Of a DNA stretch of 20,721 nucleotides, positions 3,513 through 19,633 are shown piece after piece. Below the pieces are notes generated by a model, which was given only the letters and a program-made list of their open reading frames with translations, made no database searches and was not told the origin of the DNA. A program made the translations under genes and the position numbers. The stretch is from a virus. The stretch covers positions 1 through 20,721 of IMG/VR virus record IMGVR_UViG_3300014501_000530; one strand, written 5' to 3'. The first letter of the stretch is position 1. Every line of letters begins with the position of its first letter.

Positions 3513-3542
3513 AAAACGCTCCTTTCGAGAGCAAAAGACAGC

Positions 3543-3614
3543 TCCACAGGATCGATTTGAACCAACAACCTCACCGATTAACAATCGGGAATTCTACCAT
3601 TGAACTACTGTGGA
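3543..3614 (-). tRNA. tRNA-Asn(GTT), divergent T-arm
   Basis: On the minus strand TCCACAG pairs with CTGTGGA (7-bp acceptor). The D-arm GTTC-AATGGTA-GAAT and the anticodon loop TTGTTAA, with anticodon GTT, fit tRNA-Asn, as does the TAGTTCAATGGTAGAAT segment typical of bacterial tRNA-Asn. The discriminator base is G and no CCA is encoded. The T-loop is TTCAAAT, but the T-stem (GTTGG against CGATC) has two mismatches, and the outer anticodon-stem pair is C opposite T. It is a probable functional or slightly decayed phage tRNA. Confidence 0.7.
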
Positions 3615-3620
3615 AATAAT

Positions 3621-3694
3621 AACCCGACTAGGACTTTAACCTAGATCTTCAGCAGGAAGCTAGCAAGCTGACGCTTTAATTAAGCTATCGGGCC
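3621..3694 (-). tRNA. tRNA-like gene with 13-nt anticodon loop (isotype uncertain)
   Basis: On the minus strand GGCCCGA pairs with TCGGGTT (acceptor), GCTT-AATTA-AAGC forms a short D-arm, TCAGC/GCTGA forms an anticodon stem, and CTAGG-TTAAAGT-CCTAG a good T-arm. The loop of the anticodon stem is 13 nt (TTGCTAGCTTCCT) instead of 7. It contains a near-perfect 8-bp duplication, AGCTTGCT/AGCTTCCT. A Gly(TCC) or Ser(GCT) identity could be read from different parts of the loop. It lies 6 bp from tRNA-Asn. It may be a tRNA altered by a small duplication, or a decoy. Confidence 0.55.
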
Positions 3695-7847: not shown

Positions 7848-7882
7848 AACCATTCCTTTTAAGGTGGTTTTCTTTCTGTTCG

Positions 7883-7934
7883 TTTTTCGGTACGTCCGAA
7901 AAAGAAGAGACTGTCTCCAGTTTAAGGAAGACAG
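7883..7934 (-). terminator. Hairpins with U-rich tail before the 7847 gene
   Basis: On the minus strand CTGTCTTCC pairs with GGAGACAG (7911-7934, one bulge) and is followed by TCTCTTCTTTTT, an intrinsic-terminator pattern for leftward transcription. A second perfect hairpin, TTTTTCGG-ACGTA-CCGAAAAA (7883-7903), follows. They could end the leftward transcript crossing the structured region and separate it from the 7662-7847 gene. Confidence 0.6.
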
Positions 7935-8082
7935 CCCCGGTTTGCTCTTTCGAGCGAGTTTTATCCATCGCAACGGTAGATCAATTAACCTGGTTTTTCA
8001 ACCAAACTAAAAGATACGCCACATGGTAACTTGCGATTTCCATTAACTTGAATACGTTTACCCGAATATTCAAGCAATACGA

Positions 8083-8225
8083 TTTGACTTGGAATCTAAC
8101 TCACGTAGTTAGCCCGTTCGGTATAATCACCACGAAAATCTGGAAGTGTCTATCGTAAAACCTACTAGCAATAGAAATACTATTGCCCACTTGCGTGCTC
8201 CAGATTCTTTCCGTACCAAGTTGAA
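8083..8225. ncRNA. Structured domain with enclosing helix and two arms
   Basis: An outer helix (8087-8092/8216-8221, extendable to 8083/8225 with G-U pairs on the plus strand) encloses a small hairpin CTAACT-CACGT-AGTTAG (8096-8112). It also encloses a long arm built from AATCTGGA/TCCAGATT (8137-8144/8199-8206), AAGTG/CACTT and GCAATAG-AAATA-CTATTGC. Upstream, CTTGAATA/TATTCAAG (8047-8074) forms a separate 8-bp hairpin. Confidence 0.55.
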
Positions 8226-8241
8226 CCATTATCGACGCTTT

Positions 8242-8351
8242 CTCTTAGTAAATGGGAGGGTCCGCAATCTGCTTTTTCTTGCGAAAAAGTGTGTCGAATT
8301 GCTTCATCCGGGAGATTAAGGCCGGACTTTCGACCGAAGTTACACTAAGAG
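8242..8351 (-). ncRNA. Structured domain closed by CTCTTAGT/ACTAAGAG with two GNRA hairpins
   Basis: An 8-bp helix (8242-8249 with 8344-8351) encloses CTTTTTC-GCAA-GAAAAAG (8272-8289, read on the minus strand) and CGGTC-GAAA-GTCCG (8323-8336, one mismatch). A 9-bp hairpin GTTAT-GCTG-CAA-CAGC-TA-ATAAC starts at 8351, immediately next to it, and could stack on the outer helix. Confidence 0.55.
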
Positions 8352-8626
8352 TTATGCTGCAACAGCTAATAACGCCCTTTGATGGAAACTTGGATTTGTC
8401 GCATCTAACCAATTCTACTGCCAAGATCCTAAACTCAACCATGGTATTGCTACCATTGGGAATTCATTTGCAGATAGAACCAGAATGAATGAAGTGTTGG
8501 GGGATTGGACCACTTGCCTATATGCAATAAAATCACTAGTACGGTAGGGTAATCTATGTTTCCATCCGAACCAAACACGATCCGACTCGACTCGCTATCG
8601 CTTGTCTCGTCTTTTCCCCCTTTTTT

Positions 8627-8743
8627 ACCTAAACCAGGTTAGGTGAATGTTATCCCTAACAAAACACTAACAAATTGAATTAGGCTAATGTTAACCCAAA
8701 CAACAACCTAACTAGGGCAACTGCCATTAAGGTATAAGTTAGG
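8627..8743. other. CTAAC/GTTAG-rich segment with helices
   Basis: CTAA(C) and (G)TTAG repeats recur here: ACCTAAACCAGGTTAGGT (8627-8644) is a hairpin, GTTAGG (8638-8643) can pair with CCTAAC (8655-8660) instead, and CCTAACT (8707-8713) pairs with AGTTAGG (8737-8743). The repeats could be parts of the RNA structure or binding sites for a DNA-binding protein. Confidence 0.4.
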
Positions 8744-8913
8744 ATTGATCGGAATGGAGACAATGAAGCTATGCGTTTTTCCTAATCATTGCGACTAGGC
8801 AAACGTCGATGGAAAACCACTAAGAACAATTACCCATTTCCTATATGGTTTTGCATTTCCGATTTAATTCGGATAGGCAAAGTGTAGATAGGGTATAGGT
8901 AAGTGTAGGGTTT

Positions 8914-9009
8914 GGGATCGAACAGGCGTCGGGCCGTGCTGGCCGTTGCCGGGCGTAGTCGGGAGGGATCGAACAGGCGTCGGGCCGTGCTGGCCGTTGC
9001 CGGGCGTAG
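8914..9009. repeat. GC-rich 45-bp direct duplication
   Basis: Positions 8914-8958 and 8965-9009 are identical 45-mers starting GGGATCGAACAGGCGTCGGG, separated by 6 bp (period 51). Each is about 73% GC in an AT-richer setting and contains GGCC-GTGCT-GGCC, a small hairpin. Minus-strand translation stays open through both copies, but no start or binding site is seen. It looks like a recent duplication of a foreign or functional element. Confidence 0.9.
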
Positions 9010-9192
9010 CAAGTGCTACAATTCCCAAGCACTTCAATGATGCTTAGTCCGCCTTAACGTAGGCTATATGCTGGCATGATGCCAGTACACCACTTTGGTT
9101 ATGACCCGTCTAAGGCCTTGCAATAACGGCCTAGGGAATGGTGTATTACGTCTCCCGAACAATGGGTAGTCTTTGCCGATCAATGACGATGG

Positions 9193-9450
9193 ACTAGGAC
9201 TATCGAAAATTCGCTAGGTCTAGTTTGCTTGCAGTTGTCAACCCGACATACTACTTCTAATTGTACTCGTGCATCTTGCGAAGCCCCAACAACGCAACGG
9301 ATGGCGTTACCATCATGCCGATACGTGGCAATTCGTTCGGTCATTCCATACCATCCAGTCTATGACACTGGACGTTGGCACTTGCGTTGTCTCATCGCAG
9401 ATAGACCTTGCTAAATGGGCCTAGTCTCTGCAAGTACAATCGTGCAAACT
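9193..9450. ncRNA. Nested multi-branch RNA domain
   Basis: From the outside in: a hairpin ACTAG.../...CTAGT (9193-9224, 12-13 pairs); ATTGTACT/AGTACAAT (9260-9267/9433-9440, extendable to 11 bp with G-U on the minus strand); and ACAACGCAA/TTGCGTTGT (9289-9297/9382-9390). The last of these encloses GATGG-CGTTA-CCATC (9300-9314), TGCC/GGCA (9316-9330) and TCCAGT/ACTGGA (9354-9372). GCAGA(TA)GAC/GTCTCTGC (about 9397-9431) forms a side arm. The helices are mutually compatible, as expected for a folded RNA. Confidence 0.55.
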
Positions 9451-9478
9451 GACAGGGAGAAAATTATCAAAGAACAAA

Positions 9479-9526
9479 AGCTACTCTTTCGAGTAGCTAA
9501 GCTTCCGTCCCTCCGTTAAGAGGGAC
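9479..9526 (-). terminator. Tandem hairpins; leftward intrinsic terminator
   Basis: AGCTACTC (9479-9486) and GAGTAGCT (9491-9498) form a perfect 8-bp stem whose minus-strand loop is GAAA and which is followed on that strand by TTTTGTTCTTT. GTCCCTC/GAGGGAC (9507-9513/9520-9526) forms a second 7-bp stem just after the 9550-9855 gene. Together they probably terminate that leftward gene. Confidence 0.75.
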
Positions 9527-9549
9527 AGTCGCGAACCCTGTAGGTTGGA

Positions 9550-9855
9550 TTAAACCGGGACAACGGCATCGACGATATCGGCGATAAAGACACCTTGTGC
9601 GGTGAACTTCGCAATACGCTTTGCTTGCGACGTTTCCACCGTAAGCATACGTACTCCCTCATCGAAAGTGCTGTTTTTTGCACCGACGATAGTACGCCGA
9701 TTCTTTCGAGCGTCCAGCGTGCAATCGAGCGTCTCCCGCATTGCCTCTAGCAATGCACGAGTGCCCTCCTCCGTCTTGCCCTTAGTCAAGGCAGACAAGG
9801 CGAGTGCTTGTCCGGCGAGTGCGGCTTTTTCCGTGGAAGTGAGTTTAGCGGCCAT
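9550..9855 (-). CDS. Hypothetical Ala-rich helical protein (101 aa)
   Basis: ATG at 9855 begins MAAKLTSTEKAALAGQALAL. No good Shine-Dalgarno site is visible, and the 100 nt upstream hold three hairpins. The protein is helical and Ala-rich at first (residues 1-45), then basic (ARKNRRTIVGAKN) and ends with FTAQGVFIADIVDAVVPV. The gene is richer in GC than the leftward block, and its antisense ORF (9602-9880) is probably a shadow. No family is recognised. A double hairpin terminator lies directly downstream. Confidence 0.65.
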   Translation of the reverse strand: MAAKLTSTEKAALAGQALALSALTKGKTEEGTRALLEAMRETLDCTLDARKNRRTIVGAKNSTFDEGVRMLTVETSQAKRIAKFTAQGVFIADIVDAVVPV

Positions 9856-10158: not shown

Positions 10159-10269
10159 ATCATTCCTTCCGTTGCTTCCATCCCCCGATTGAATCATTGC
10201 GATTGTATCGGCATTGTCAAGTACTCTGCATTGGGAAGATTTTCATTTTCTCAAAATCCAAAAAACATA

Positions 10270-10466
10270 CCATATAGATAGTGGTCAATAGACCTTCATA
10301 TGGAGCAAAATCTATATCGACGTTTGCCGCACGATAGCAGTATGCTCCGTCTTCGTGGTCAGTACGGGAAGCTATCGCCCCGCATTTTGCTTCCTATTGA
10401 GTTTAGAAGTGCTCCATTTATCCGAAAATATGGGGCGGAAAAACTGCCCCATAATTCAGTGCTCCA
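10270..10466. ncRNA. Structured element with alternative pairings
   Basis: CCATAT/ATATGG (10270-10275/10298-10303) closes a hairpin. GGAGCAAAAT (10302-10311) pairs with ATTTTGC(T)TCC (10384-10394), enclosing CGATAGC/GCTATCG (10332-10338/10371-10377) and CCGT/ACGG. ATGGGGC/GCCCCAT (10430-10436/10446-10452) is a further stem, flanked by two AGTGCTCCA copies (10408 and 10458). TGGAGCA at 10301-10307 could instead pair with TGCTCC at 10343, 10410 or 10460. An overlapping 94-codon plus-strand ORF (10300-10584) is unlikely to be real. Confidence 0.5.
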
Positions 10467-10584
10467 CAATTCGGCACATTTGCCATCTTTACTATTATTG
10501 TCACATTTCCCCTTATTGCTCTTATTACCACTAATACCAGGATTGCGTTTTTTGCCAGGAATGCCAGGATTGCTGCTTTTGTGA

Positions 10585-11004
10585 GATTTGTGATTTTGAC
10601 CCCGGCCCCATAATCATAGAAGTTATTTCAAGTTAGGGTTTTGTTCGGATTTCGCGGCGGGCCTGTAAACTAAGTTAAGATCAAAGCTTCCCGTAACAAC
10701 CAGTAATTTAAAACCTAGTAGCAGAGATATTTATTCTTTCCCGTCCCAACCAAACGCTTAATGATGTGTCTCTTATAGTAGTGCTATGGATAATCATAGG
10801 ATCAAAATAAGACTTCTATAAGAAAATGAAAAAGGGAAGTGAAAAAATCATTGTTTTTGAAAAAAACGGGGGTTGCCTAGCAAACGGTTGTTTCCCATCA
10901 TGACCAGAACCCTATATATATTTATTACTTGGTTTTTCCGTCAACTTGTATAAACCGGTAGTGAAAGCTTAAAATAAGACTTTGTAAAGAAAGCGAAGAG
11001 CAAA
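10585..11004. promoter_or_regulatory. Switch region with duplicated promoter-like segment
   Basis: No gene is seen. Two segments share TATTTATT, then a CCGTC-type stretch, then AAAATAAGACTT (10804-10815 and 10973-10984). The second lies about 20 bp before the first rightward gene, and TTGTATAAA lies about 30 bp before the second copy. They are candidates for rightward (late) promoters. A GTTTTT/AAAAAC inverted repeat lies near 10855. Confidence 0.4.
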
Positions 11005-11214
11005 ATGAACTACCATAAGAATTTCTCAGACCGACGTACCCAATCCTATTATGGTTCAGACACTCATCCATATAATTGGTTCAAATCAACTTCTCCTAGT
11101 AATCTTCTCTATCCACAAGGGGCAAGTAAATTTGGAACCAGCATAAATAAGATTCCTTATCCAACAGACAATGCTGATAGAGCACCAAGAGCAGTAACAC
11201 CAAAGTATCTCTAG
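11005..11214 (+). CDS. Hypothetical protein (69 aa)
   Basis: This is the first rightward gene, starting at ATG 11005 after a weak GAAGAG site. It begins MNYHKNFSDRRTQSYYGSDT and is rich in Tyr, Ser, Asn and Pro (HPYNWFKSTSPSNLLYPQGA), so it is probably extended or disordered, as in small virion proteins. No family is recognised. Confidence 0.6.
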   Translation: MNYHKNFSDRRTQSYYGSDTHPYNWFKSTSPSNLLYPQGASKFGTSINKIPYPTDNADRAPRAVTPKYL

Positions 11215-11242
11215 CGTCGAGGTTAGAACGGGAAACAAACCT

Positions 11243-11344
11243 ATGCCTAATAAGGACTATATATTTCAAGATATTATTGATTTTGGTCTAATCATTATTT
11301 TAATGGTTTGGATTTTAACCCTAGGAGGTTTTTGTGGCTCGTAA
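11243..11344 (+). CDS. 33-aa membrane peptide overlapping the next gene
   Basis: ATG at 11243 encodes MPNKDYIFQDIIDFGLIIIL, then MVWILTLGGFCGS and TAA. Residues 12-30 form one hydrophobic helix, so it is probably membrane-inserted. Its 3' end contains the AGGAGG binding site and GTG start of the next gene, an 11-bp overlap typical of coupling. Its own binding site is weak (GGGAAA). A toxin-like or holin-like role is possible but unproven. Confidence 0.5.
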   Translation: MPNKDYIFQDIIDFGLIIILMVWILTLGGFCGS

Positions 11345-15546: not shown

Positions 15547-16551
15547 ATGAAAATAGCAGTGGTAACTGGAGCATCGGGGCAAAGCGGTAGTTATATGAGC
15601 GACCTTCTATTGGAGAATGGATATAAAGTAGTAGCTATTCAACGGCGTGCCGGATCGAGAGATAACTCCAATATAGAACACATCTTACCTCATCCTAGAT
15701 TTATAATTGAACAGGGTGATTTAACTGATTTTGGGAGTCTTAGTCGTATAGTTCAAAAGTATTTACCAGATGAGTTTTATAATTTTGCAGCGATGAGTTA
15801 TGTTGGAGCTTCTTGGGATGAACCTATCTCTTGTTGTGCAATTAATACACTCGGAGTAGCTAATTGTCTAGAATCCATTAGGTTAAATTCGCCTAAGACT
15901 AAATTTTTCCAAGCAAGTACCAGTGAAGTTTATGGCCGGGTTACAACACCAAAACAAGATGAAACAACAGAATCTAATCCAAGGTCGCCTTATGGAGCGT
16001 CAAAACTTGGTGCAGAAGCCCTAGTAAAAGTATACCGTGAAAGCTATGGCCTCTTCGCATTTTTCGCTAGAAGTTTTAATCACGAATCAGAACGACGCGG
16101 AAAACAATTTGTCACGCGAAAGATTTCGGACTACGTCGGAAAATTGTATAATTTTAAAGATGATGGCAGTTTGAAACTTGGCAATATTGACACCAAGAGA
16201 GATTTTAGTCATGCTAAGGATATCGTAGATGGTATTTGGTTAGCAGCCCAACTCCAAGAACCTGTAGATTTAGTTTTATCTTCGGGACAAACCCATTCTA
16301 TTAAAGAGGTTTTGGAAATTGCATTTGGATATATCGGTAAAAATTGGAAGAATTACGTTGAAATAGATCAAAAGTTATATCGTCCTGCTGAAGTCAACTA
16401 TCTTTGTGGAGATTCTACTAAAGCTAGAAAACTTTTACAATGGCAACCGCAGATTGATTTTGAAACCCTTATCACTAATATGGTCATAAACGATATTCAT
16501 CTTTCTAATCCAATGAAAAATATGGCGGAATCAATAAATGTGGAATCATAG
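15547..16551 (+). CDS. GDP-mannose 4,6-dehydratase-like SDR enzyme (334 aa)
   Basis: ATG at 15547 has AAGGAG 7 nt upstream. The N terminus contains the dinucleotide motif TGASGQSGS (G8, G11, G14). Residues 125-130 read TSEVYG and Y149/K153 form YGASK, the catalytic YxxxK. NHESERRGKQFVTRKI, then SSGQTHSIKEVLEIAFGYIG and YRPAEVNYLCGDSTKARKLL, are characteristic of GDP-mannose 4,6-dehydratase, which makes GDP-4-keto-6-deoxymannose, a precursor of deoxyhexoses such as fucose or rhamnose. Length fits the family. It overlaps the next gene by 14 bp. In a phage it could alter host or virion sugars. A related nucleotide-sugar dehydratase remains possible. Confidence 0.85.
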   Translation: MKIAVVTGASGQSGSYMSDLLLENGYKVVAIQRRAGSRDNSNIEHILPHPRFIIEQGDLTDFGSLSRIVQKYLPDEFYNFAAMSYVGASWDEPISCCAINTLGVANCLESIRLNSPKTKFFQASTSEVYGRVTTPKQDETTESNPRSPYGASKLGAEALVKVYRESYGLFAFFARSFNHESERRGKQFVTRKISDYVGKLYNFKDDGSLKLGNIDTKRDFSHAKDIVDGIWLAAQLQEPVDLVLSSGQTHSIKEVLEIAFGYIGKNWKNYVEIDQKLYRPAEVNYLCGDSTKARKLLQWQPQIDFETLITNMVINDIHLSNPMKNMAESINVES

Positions 16552-16948
16552 AGACGATTATAATTCGCCTGAGTATAAAGCCTGGAGGTATAGCGTTTTT
16601 TGTCGCTTCGGGTTTGAATGCCAGATGTGCCACAGACGTGGAATCCCTATGCAAGCACATCATATTTTGAAATACAGCCTATATCCTGCCTTAAGGCATG
16701 TAGTTTCTAATGGCATTTGCCTATGCGTAGGTTGTCATAAAATAGTAACAGGTAATGAAGAAGCGTATGAAGCAGAGTTCAAAAGAATAATCGCTATGAA
16801 GCGAATTTCGACTAGGAATGATAAGAAAAATAACCCAAAGAAAAAACCACCGAATGATAAGTCGCGAGGCAATAATAAAGGACGTAGGAAAAAACCAATC
16901 CGGGGAAAGAAGAAGTGGAAACCAAAGAATACAAACTTGAGGTATTAA
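16538..16948 (+). CDS. HNH endonuclease (136 aa)
   Basis: ATG at 16538 overlaps the dehydratase gene by 14 bp, so translation may be coupled. Residues 11-75 form an HNH domain: CQMC (C28, C31), QAHHI (H41, H42), NGICLCVGCH (N58, C63, C66, H67). The Cys pairs can bind zinc. The last 50 residues are extremely basic (KKNNPKKKPPNDKSR, GRRKKPIRGKKKWKPK) and should bind nucleic acid. HNH proteins next to terminase genes are known to assist cleavage during packaging, and this position fits that role. Confidence 0.85.
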   Translation: MWNHRDDYNSPEYKAWRYSVFCRFGFECQMCHRRGIPMQAHHILKYSLYPALRHVVSNGICLCVGCHKIVTGNEEAYEAEFKRIIAMKRISTRNDKKNNPKKKPPNDKSRGNNKGRRKKPIRGKKKWKPKNTNLRY

Positions 16949-17461: not shown

Positions 17462-19633
17462 ATGGTCATTAATCGTCATGATTTAGAACTTCGCCAGATC
17501 GAACAGACCACTTTAATTAACCCTTTTGAGGAAATTGAAGATGATTTGGAATGGCTAAATCTTGACTATATACCAAAGAAAGTTTCACATCCTTTTAATT
17601 GTTACAATGTTGGTGATATAATACCTGATCCAGTTGATGAATTAACTAATATTTTTTTAAATCCGGATTATTTACACTTTGCTGTTAGAGCTTTACTGAA
17701 TATGGAACTTCCACCATATCAATGTACCATTTTAGACACCTTATGGAGTAGACGTTTGCCAATGTTGATTGGAGGACGCGGATCTTCAAAGTCGAGAATG
17801 TTAGCTACGTATTGTTTACTTAGAATGATTTTTCATCCTGGGTGTAATGTTGTTATTGTAGGCAATGGACTACGTCAATCACGTCAAGTGTTTGATTATA
17901 TGGTTAAAACATGGAATGAATCGCCAGTTTTAAGGGACATAGCAGGAAAAGGGCGTACTGTAGGCCCACGCCGTGAAATTGACCGTTTCCAATTTGAAAT
18001 TGGTGATAGTCATACATATGCAATTCCTTTGGGCCAGGGTGATAAGATTAGAGGACTTCGTGCAAATTATGTAATATGCGACGAATTCTCATCCATTAAT
18101 GAGGAAGTTTTTAATGTAGTGGTTCAGGGGTTCGCTATTGTTGCATCTGATCCAGTTGAAAAGGTCAAGGAATACGCTACTATTAAAAAGTTAAAAAAAT
18201 GTGGTCAATGGTCTGATGAGATGGAAGCGTTATTTAGAAGTCGTGCTGGAGGAAACCAAATAGTTTGTTCTGGTACTGCTTACTACTCCTTTAATCATTT
18301 TTATAAGAGGTTTAAACAATGGCATGATATTATTGCATCAAAAGGTGATCCGCACAGATTAGCTTCTGCCTTAGGTAGCGACGAAAGTTTAAAAAACTTC
18401 CAATGGAAAGACTATGCTATTTTGCGTATTCCATATAATGAAGTTCCAGAAGGAATGTTAGATGCAAATATTTTAAATCAAGCTAGAGCTACTTTGAGCA
18501 GAAGTCAATTTTTAATGGAATATTGTGCTTGTTTTATTTCAGATACAGACGGTTTTTATCGACGTTCTATTCTTGAGGCTGCAACTTGTAATAAACCTAT
18601 TGTAACTTTAGATGGTTTAGTTCAGTTTAATGCCCAGATGACTGGTGATCGTAAAAAATCCTATGTTATGGCGATAGATCCTGCTGCGGATAAAGATAAT
18701 GCTGCTATAGTTTTACTTGAGTTAAACGTTAGTCATCGAAAAATCGCCCATGTTTGGACAACCAACAAGAAAAAGTATAACGATCTTCGCAAGTATATGG
18801 AAGCTAAAGGCAAGGAGGTTTCAGAAGATTATTATCGCTATATAGCTATGAAAATTCGGCAATTTATGCGTGAGTTTCCTATTGAACATATTATAATGGA
18901 CAAAAATGGTGGCGGAACTGCAATTGCCGAGTCACTTAAAAGTATAGAGAGTTATGAAGCTGGCGAACTACCCATTTATCCAATCATAGATCCAGACGAA
19001 CCAAAACCCGATGATATTAGAAAAGGTCTTCATATACTTGAGTTGCTTGCCCCAACCATGGAAATAAATGCCGATGCAAACCACGGAATGTTAAAAGACT
19101 TTCAGGATAAAGTTTTAATTTTCCCTATGTTTAATTCTATCGAGGTTGCAAAGTCTATTGAGATTGACGTTATTAATAATTTAGAATTTGATGGTTTTGA
19201 AGACCTACTTGAAGAAGTGGAAGAACTTAAGAATGAAATTACATCAATCGTTGTAACTCCTTCATCTAATATAGGTAAGGAAACTTTTGATACCCCGTCT
19301 ATTAAACTTGAAGGTATGAAAAAGGGTCGCCTTCGTAAGGATAGATATTCCGCTTTGCTTTATGCTAACTTCTATGCTAGAAATAAAAATGTTGAAACCG
19401 CTATAAAGATTCAATACAATCCTGTTGGGCGAAGGCGTGGTGATGGTGAGGACGACCCATATATCACTAAAAAAACCGTCGCACCAACTCAAGGTGGTTA
19501 TTATCGAACAGGGGCTTGGCCAAGGGTTAAAACAAATGCAAATTGGATTAATGATTCAGTAAATTCAGTGGGTTTTGTTAAACATACAGCCCGACCAAAT
19601 CCTAATCAAAATCCTTATGGGCTTGGTTTTTAA
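17462..19633 (+). CDS. Terminase large subunit (TerL, 723 aa)
   Basis: ATG at 17462 has a moderate AGG site. Walker A is GGRGSSKS (G104-S111, in place of the more usual GSGKS), Walker B is YVICDEF (D207, E208). The C-terminal RNase H-like nuclease has D406 (AIDPAADKDN), D480 (MDKNGGG) and D627 (RKDRYSALLY), three acidic residues expected for DNA cleavage. Length is large but normal for phage terminases with extensions; the C terminus (GYYRTGAWPRVKT) is Gly/Asn-rich. It translocates and cuts concatemeric DNA into procapsids at the portal. The gene before it encodes a nuclease and the gene after it the portal. Assignment is secure. Confidence 0.95.
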   Translation: MVINRHDLELRQIEQTTLINPFEEIEDDLEWLNLDYIPKKVSHPFNCYNVGDIIPDPVDELTNIFLNPDYLHFAVRALLNMELPPYQCTILDTLWSRRLPMLIGGRGSSKSRMLATYCLLRMIFHPGCNVVIVGNGLRQSRQVFDYMVKTWNESPVLRDIAGKGRTVGPRREIDRFQFEIGDSHTYAIPLGQGDKIRGLRANYVICDEFSSINEEVFNVVVQGFAIVASDPVEKVKEYATIKKLKKCGQWSDEMEALFRSRAGGNQIVCSGTAYYSFNHFYKRFKQWHDIIASKGDPHRLASALGSDESLKNFQWKDYAILRIPYNEVPEGMLDANILNQARATLSRSQFLMEYCACFISDTDGFYRRSILEAATCNKPIVTLDGLVQFNAQMTGDRKKSYVMAIDPAADKDNAAIVLLELNVSHRKIAHVWTTNKKKYNDLRKYMEAKGKEVSEDYYRYIAMKIRQFMREFPIEHIIMDKNGGGTAIAESLKSIESYEAGELPIYPIIDPDEPKPDDIRKGLHILELLAPTMEINADANHGMLKDFQDKVLIFPMFNSIEVAKSIEIDVINNLEFDGFEDLLEEVEELKNEITSIVVTPSSNIGKETFDTPSIKLEGMKKGRLRKDRYSALLYANFYARNKNVETAIKIQYNPVGRRRGDGEDDPYITKKTVAPTQGGYYRTGAWPRVKTNANWINDSVNSVGFVKHTARPNPNQNPYGLGF

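Follow-up and report, generated by a model that had tools for sequence, protein, structure and literature searches.

To our knowledge, only a few very large structured RNAs are known from bacteria and phages, and no role has been established for GOLLD or ROOL. GOLLD forms a homo-oligomeric RNA cage and its expression rises at lysis; ROOL, of about 0.6 kb, is transcribed very abundantly. GOLLD (RF02032) has been described as a very large structured phage RNA, often located near tRNA genes, and ROOL (RF03087) as a large, abundant RNA encoded by phages and prophages near tRNA islands, with no protein partner identified; both assemble into RNA-only cages (PMC12286853). Abundant untranslated RNAs of 525-570 nt near tRNA genes were also found by RNA-seq in Kayvirus 515A1 (PMC7698491).

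The window analysed here, the whole 20,721-nucleotide stretch of a phage (a 20.7-kb virus record), carries leftward genes in its left half and, from 11.3 kb, rightward genes leading towards a terminase gene (17462-19633). Inside the mostly packed leftward arm lies a stretch of 1.5 kb without a convincing gene. On the basis of strand-specific folding and the absence of a coding signal, it was assigned as a candidate noncoding RNA, large (about 1.56 kb) and structured, that would run on the minus strand from 9456 to 7897. Two adjacent tRNA genes (3541-3694, minus strand) lie about 4.2 kb downstream of it on the same strand; the Rfam tRNA model detects both, and ARAGORN detects the Asn tRNA only.

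GOLLD usually measures about 0.8 kb, roughly half the length of the candidate (PMC12286853). The candidate gave no match to the GOLLD covariance model, and no conserved 3' region of that family was recognised in it. GOLLD often lies near tRNA genes; the two tRNA genes of this virus contig are on the same strand as the candidate, about 4.2 kb away and not adjacent. ROOL env-120, with 659 nt, is also much shorter than the predicted 1.56 kb, and its model found no match either. Kayvirus lncRNA1 and lncRNA2 (515A1 / phage K) resemble the candidate in being noncoding, on the minus strand of a phage, and not in Rfam (PMC7698491), and lncRNA2 shares its folding strand bias (z -5.1 vs -1.3). In contrast to the candidate, which is predicted from sequence, they have been demonstrated by RNA-seq, and they are shorter (570 nt and 525 nt). 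They also have fewer GNRA-capped hairpins, none in lncRNA1 and one in lncRNA2 as against five. A search of the phage collection revealed no sequence similarity between them and the candidate.

Relatives of the terminase were present in 80 viral contigs, the closest being 59% identical (L004). In these 80 contigs no leftward gene up to 10.2 kb had a relative, so the arm that holds the candidate RNA is an orphan; the peptides of the leftward genes, when used as queries in a contig scan, also gave no match. Upstream of the terminase, several relatives share with this contig a GDP-mannose 4,6-dehydratase-like gene and, behind it, an HNH gene (15547-16948, plus strand). Another gene-poor stretch (10200-11330) separates the leftward and rightward arms; it contains an imperfect inverted repeat (10272-10317). 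At the left end of the contig, a 27-nt tandem repeat of 2.3 copies (1-63) encodes the repeated peptide MSGSATVQS; the leftward gene that contains it is truncated by the contig end.

Folding energy was compared with that of dinucleotide shuffles, as the preliminary description had proposed; such shuffles are a lenient null, and real windows of related-phage DNA were also used. Against shuffles, the z-scores were between -6.4 and -8.0 for the minus strand and between -3.1 and -4.0 for the plus strand (-6.5 and -3.1 for 8040-9470; -8.0 and -3.7 for 7897-9456, or -6.4 and -4.0 with the other shuffle set). The folding signal thus belongs to the minus strand, a point on which the preliminary description was silent. 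Control windows from the same contig gave values from +0.5 to -5.1, the latter being reached by a coding window. Escherichia coli 16S rRNA, a yardstick of about equal length, scored -4.6 on the RNA strand and -1.0 on the other. The candidate contained 249 pairs with a probability above 0.9, compared to 136 +/- 57 in shuffles, indicating a well-defined ensemble.

The strand-specific folding expected of a large structured RNA, better than that of shuffles, was therefore found, but against real phage DNA it placed the candidate only roughly in the top 5-10%. Of 46 windows of 1.56 kb drawn at random from related phages, five exceeded it in relative folding excess, one or two reached its regression z, and several of the windows with comparable excess came from leftward arms. 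By energy, 16S rRNA was also unremarkable (excess 7.1%, z -4.6). Folding energy alone is not decisive for the candidate RNA. The energy data are compatible with the main rival explanation, which is that this is an ordinary hairpin-rich, untranslated stretch of the early leftward arm, where genes have decayed or where a long intergenic region contains several hairpins and terminators, and which yields no single functional RNA. On this view the folding excess would be typical of such phage arms, and the arms of related phages do hold many intergenic hairpins. The many hairpins noted in the preliminary description are present, but their plain density is ordinary (about 30 per kb for stems of at least 6 bp, where the leftward gene arm has 32-42 per kb on its minus strand).

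The dependence of the minus-strand signal on the maximum pairing span can also be read in favour of an ordinary stretch. The z-score was -4.3 at 60 nt, -6.5 at 150 nt, -7.0 at 400 nt and -6.4 without a limit. Since pairing beyond about 400 nt brings no extra significance, what is supported is a set of domains of up to about 400 nt; the helices needed to close the RNA as a whole (9477-9470/7949-7942 and 9193-9187/7970-7964) receive no support from span-limited folding.

It is the GNRA-capped hairpins, not the energy, that set both the candidate and 16S rRNA apart from phage DNA. With stems of at least 5 bp, five such hairpins were counted on the minus strand of the candidate (six when the upstream terminator-like hairpin is included) and one on the plus strand; for E. 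coli 16S rRNA, the numbers were five on the RNA strand and none on the opposite strand. Shuffles contained 0.43 on average, and none of 300 reached the count of the candidate. Across related-phage DNA (9,998 windows, about 1.1 Mb) the mean was 0.53, and the candidate region held the top ranks, a count of five occurring at only two or three other places, although this result has to be discounted somewhat because the measure was picked after GCAA loops had been noticed. A count that is the highest of the 9,998 windows and equals that of 16S rRNA argues against an ordinary stretch, as do the 1.5 kb free of genes in a mostly packed arm and long helices such as 9036-9008/8518-8490. We therefore consider this explanation unlikely, even as the foremost of the alternatives.

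The predicted minus-strand fold is composed of several local domains, and the z-scores given for them refer to segments that were selected after folding. The first domain (9218-9453) is closed by the helices 9453-9444/9228-9218 and 9441-9432/9268-9259, with pair probabilities of 0.95-0.98. Its inner helix, 9391-9382/9297-9288, encloses three hairpins. The two long-range helices singled out in the preliminary description both lie in this domain and were recovered as 9441-9432/9268-9259 and 9391-9382/9297-9288, with mean pair probabilities of 0.95-0.96 on the minus strand. The z-score of the domain was -3.9 on the minus strand (0 of 150 shuffles) and -1.6 on the plus strand. It is followed by a cruciform (9071-9145; z -3.1 minus, -1.2 plus), in which the pair-probability ensemble places a helix TACACCATT/AGTGGTGTA around the hairpin CTAGGCC/GGCCTTAG, and then a hairpin CTGGCA/TGCCAG.

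The central domain (8490-9036; z -5.5 minus, -4.2 plus) is closed by about 25 bp between 9036-9008 and 8518-8490, a span of 547, at pair probabilities of 0.90-0.98, the next helix being 8971-8953/8595-8578. It includes a long irregular hairpin of about 37 bp (8806-8921; z -6.7 minus, -4.3 plus). The repeat search detected here two identical 45-nt copies, 51 nt apart (8914-8958 and 8965-9009), whose G+C content is above that of the surroundings; these reflect either a recent duplication or an assembly effect. Further along the minus strand, a long hairpin with the cap ATGGTA-GCAA-TACCAT (8409-8483) was obtained by the hairpin scan, pair probabilities and segment folding, and the hairpin CTTTTTC-GCAA-GAAAAAG (8272-8289) had a pair probability of 0.99. 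The 3'-proximal domain (8006-8249; z -3.5 minus, -1.9 plus) is a multi-branch loop closed by about 25 bp between 8249-8217 and 8033-8006, with pair probabilities of 0.85-0.93. The hairpin TTAGTTTGGTT-GAAA-AACCAGGTTAA (7985-8010), given by the hairpin scan and pair probabilities, has outer pairs that compete with the closing helix of this domain.

The ends of the candidate RNA were placed by a -10-like hexamer and a terminator-like hairpin. Upstream, the intrinsic-terminator-like hairpin AGCTACTC-GAAA-GAGTAGCT followed by TTTGTTCTTT (9498-9479, minus strand; pair probability 0.98) would terminate the leftward transcript of the gene at 9855-9550. A sigma-70-like site on the minus strand (9463-9492), consisting of TCGAAA, 18 nt and GATAAT (9468-9463), is weak, with 9 of 12 consensus matches, a quality not clearly above chance frequency. 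The start near 9456 that GATAAT would set is only suggestive; it falls three bases ahead of the first helix of the first domain. At the other side, a hairpin of 12 bp followed by TTCTTTTT (7938-7907, minus strand; pair probability 0.90) likely represents the 3' end. Both terminator-like and promoter-like sites are nearly as frequent in shuffled DNA, so that we only infer the two ends. Most of what was originally described holds, but the unit reaches beyond the proposed extent, 8040-9470, up to the hairpin at 7938-7907.

The open reading frames in 8040-9470 encode 50-78 amino acids, and their codon scores (-0.19 to 0.03) are at the wrong-frame level, compared to 0.04-0.21 (mean 0.128) for the leftward genes. 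The only frame of at least 50 amino acids with gene-like codon use is a doubtful 54-aa ORF on the minus strand (9344-9180; score 0.088), situated mostly within the first domain. Apart from this frame, the codon scores of the ORFs of at least 50 amino acids bear out the earlier judgement that no credible ORF is present. The stretch could instead be a row of separate small RNAs or small genes that have hairpins of their own. The 54-aa ORF would be one such gene, a further terminator-like hairpin lies inside the stretch (8187-8167), and independent modules would give the same folding signal, which is already full at a span of 150 nt. However, no relative of the 54-aa ORF was found, the remaining ORFs score as noncoding, and the central helix links 9036 with 8490; we regard such an arrangement as improbable.

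The preliminary description had considered membership of the GOLLD or ROOL class. A search of the whole window with Rfam 15 at E-values up to 1 detected only the two tRNAs at 3541-3694. When 7880-9560 was searched with 4227 families at E-values up to 10, there was no match, including to GOLLD (RF02032), ROOL (RF03087) and OLE, which are thus unsupported as homologues; group I and II introns, RNase P, tmRNA and rRNA models also gave none. A known large RNA, such as GOLLD or ROOL, in a very diverged form would suit the phage setting, the same-strand tRNA genes 4.2 kb away and the large size, but the same search does recover both tRNAs and the length is about double that usual for GOLLD (PMC12286853), which makes this reading very improbable. 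The lack of an Rfam match is no argument against a real phage RNA, since Kayvirus lncRNA1 and lncRNA2 have none either. An element that acts at the DNA level, for example in replication initiation or packaging, would fit a noncoding stretch near the point where transcription diverges and with the 45-nt tandem duplication inside, but no iteron array was found in the repeat search and the strand-asymmetric, GNRA-biased structure suits RNA and not DNA, leaving this explanation hardly any likelihood.

A large structured RNA is supported by the strand-specific folding, the GNRA-capped hairpins, the absence of a coding signal and the flanking terminator-like hairpins. The case that the leftward transcript of the 1.5-kb stretch would be a very large folded RNA, made from a single sequence, is strong rather than proven. 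Its strand, its noncoding nature and its local domains are suggested by computation; its ends, abundance, assembly and role we infer. We think it rather probable that the candidate is an orphan large structured phage RNA that would work like GOLLD or ROOL, a function assigned by analogy. It may even represent a class of its own, a giant phage RNA of about 1.56 kb that has several domains with GNRA caps and is unrelated to the described families; we put this forward tentatively and do not claim it, as the searches gave no homologue in which covariation could be counted.

In the mechanism we propose, a stable RNA, noncoding and about 1.56 kb long, would be transcribed leftward from about 9456 to the terminator at 7938-7907, apart from the gene on its right. 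It would fold locally into domains of 75-550 nt (9218-9453, 9071-9145, 8490-9036 and 8006-8249), and the GNRA tetraloops at several helix ends may serve as docking points for tertiary or intermolecular contacts. By analogy with GOLLD and ROOL, it could be an abundant architectural RNA, probably self-assembling or protein-binding, that provides a scaffold or container during infection, though the scaffold role itself is doubtful. If true, an orphan RNA of 1.5 kb would be among the largest, with a length about that of 16S rRNA and roughly twice that of GOLLD. It would also hint that giant RNAs are frequent in phages and escape family-based annotation because each is limited to a narrow lineage.

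Searches for homologues gave no relative of the candidate. Comparison of the stretch by blastn with phages, plasmids, E. coli genomes and 24 whole related-phage records yielded chance matches or none, and chimeric peptide translations of the RNA had no relative among viral contigs and genome contigs. A gapped DNA pattern for the helix of the first domain returned only two chance matches, in unrelated contigs (L093 and L094). A covariance model of that domain, built from one sequence, recovered no sequence other than its own from 44 loci and gave no match in 18 records. GOLLD and ROOL were not found in 18 related records, the control genomes giving no match either, and words common to the candidate and the E. 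coli rRNA operon were not in excess. The candidate structure was absent from the syntenic noncoding gaps of nine relatives (L016, L021, L022, L025, L032, L033, L007, L080 and L081), which contain small genes, terminators, hairpins or repeats of other kinds.

Some of these relatives carry noncoding features of their own. In L080 (1500-2700), a noncoding stretch rich in G+C and in repeats far surpasses shuffled sequence in folding, whichever strand is taken; it contains families of repeats 18-33 nt long and a perfect long-range inverted repeat of 22 bp (2598-2577/2381-2360). The leftward arms of L021 (4650-4800), L025 (4600-4720), L022 (4100-4230) and L032 (4080-4190) share a recurrent block of hairpins on the minus strand: first GGGGC-GAAA-GCCCC and another hairpin, then GGCC-GATA-GGCC, a run of A and finally a hairpin of the CCTGC..GCGGG type. 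In L007 (3600-4200, minus strand), a motif close to GACAGGCACTCTGATTGAGGGGGG is present in three intergenic copies among small leftward genes.
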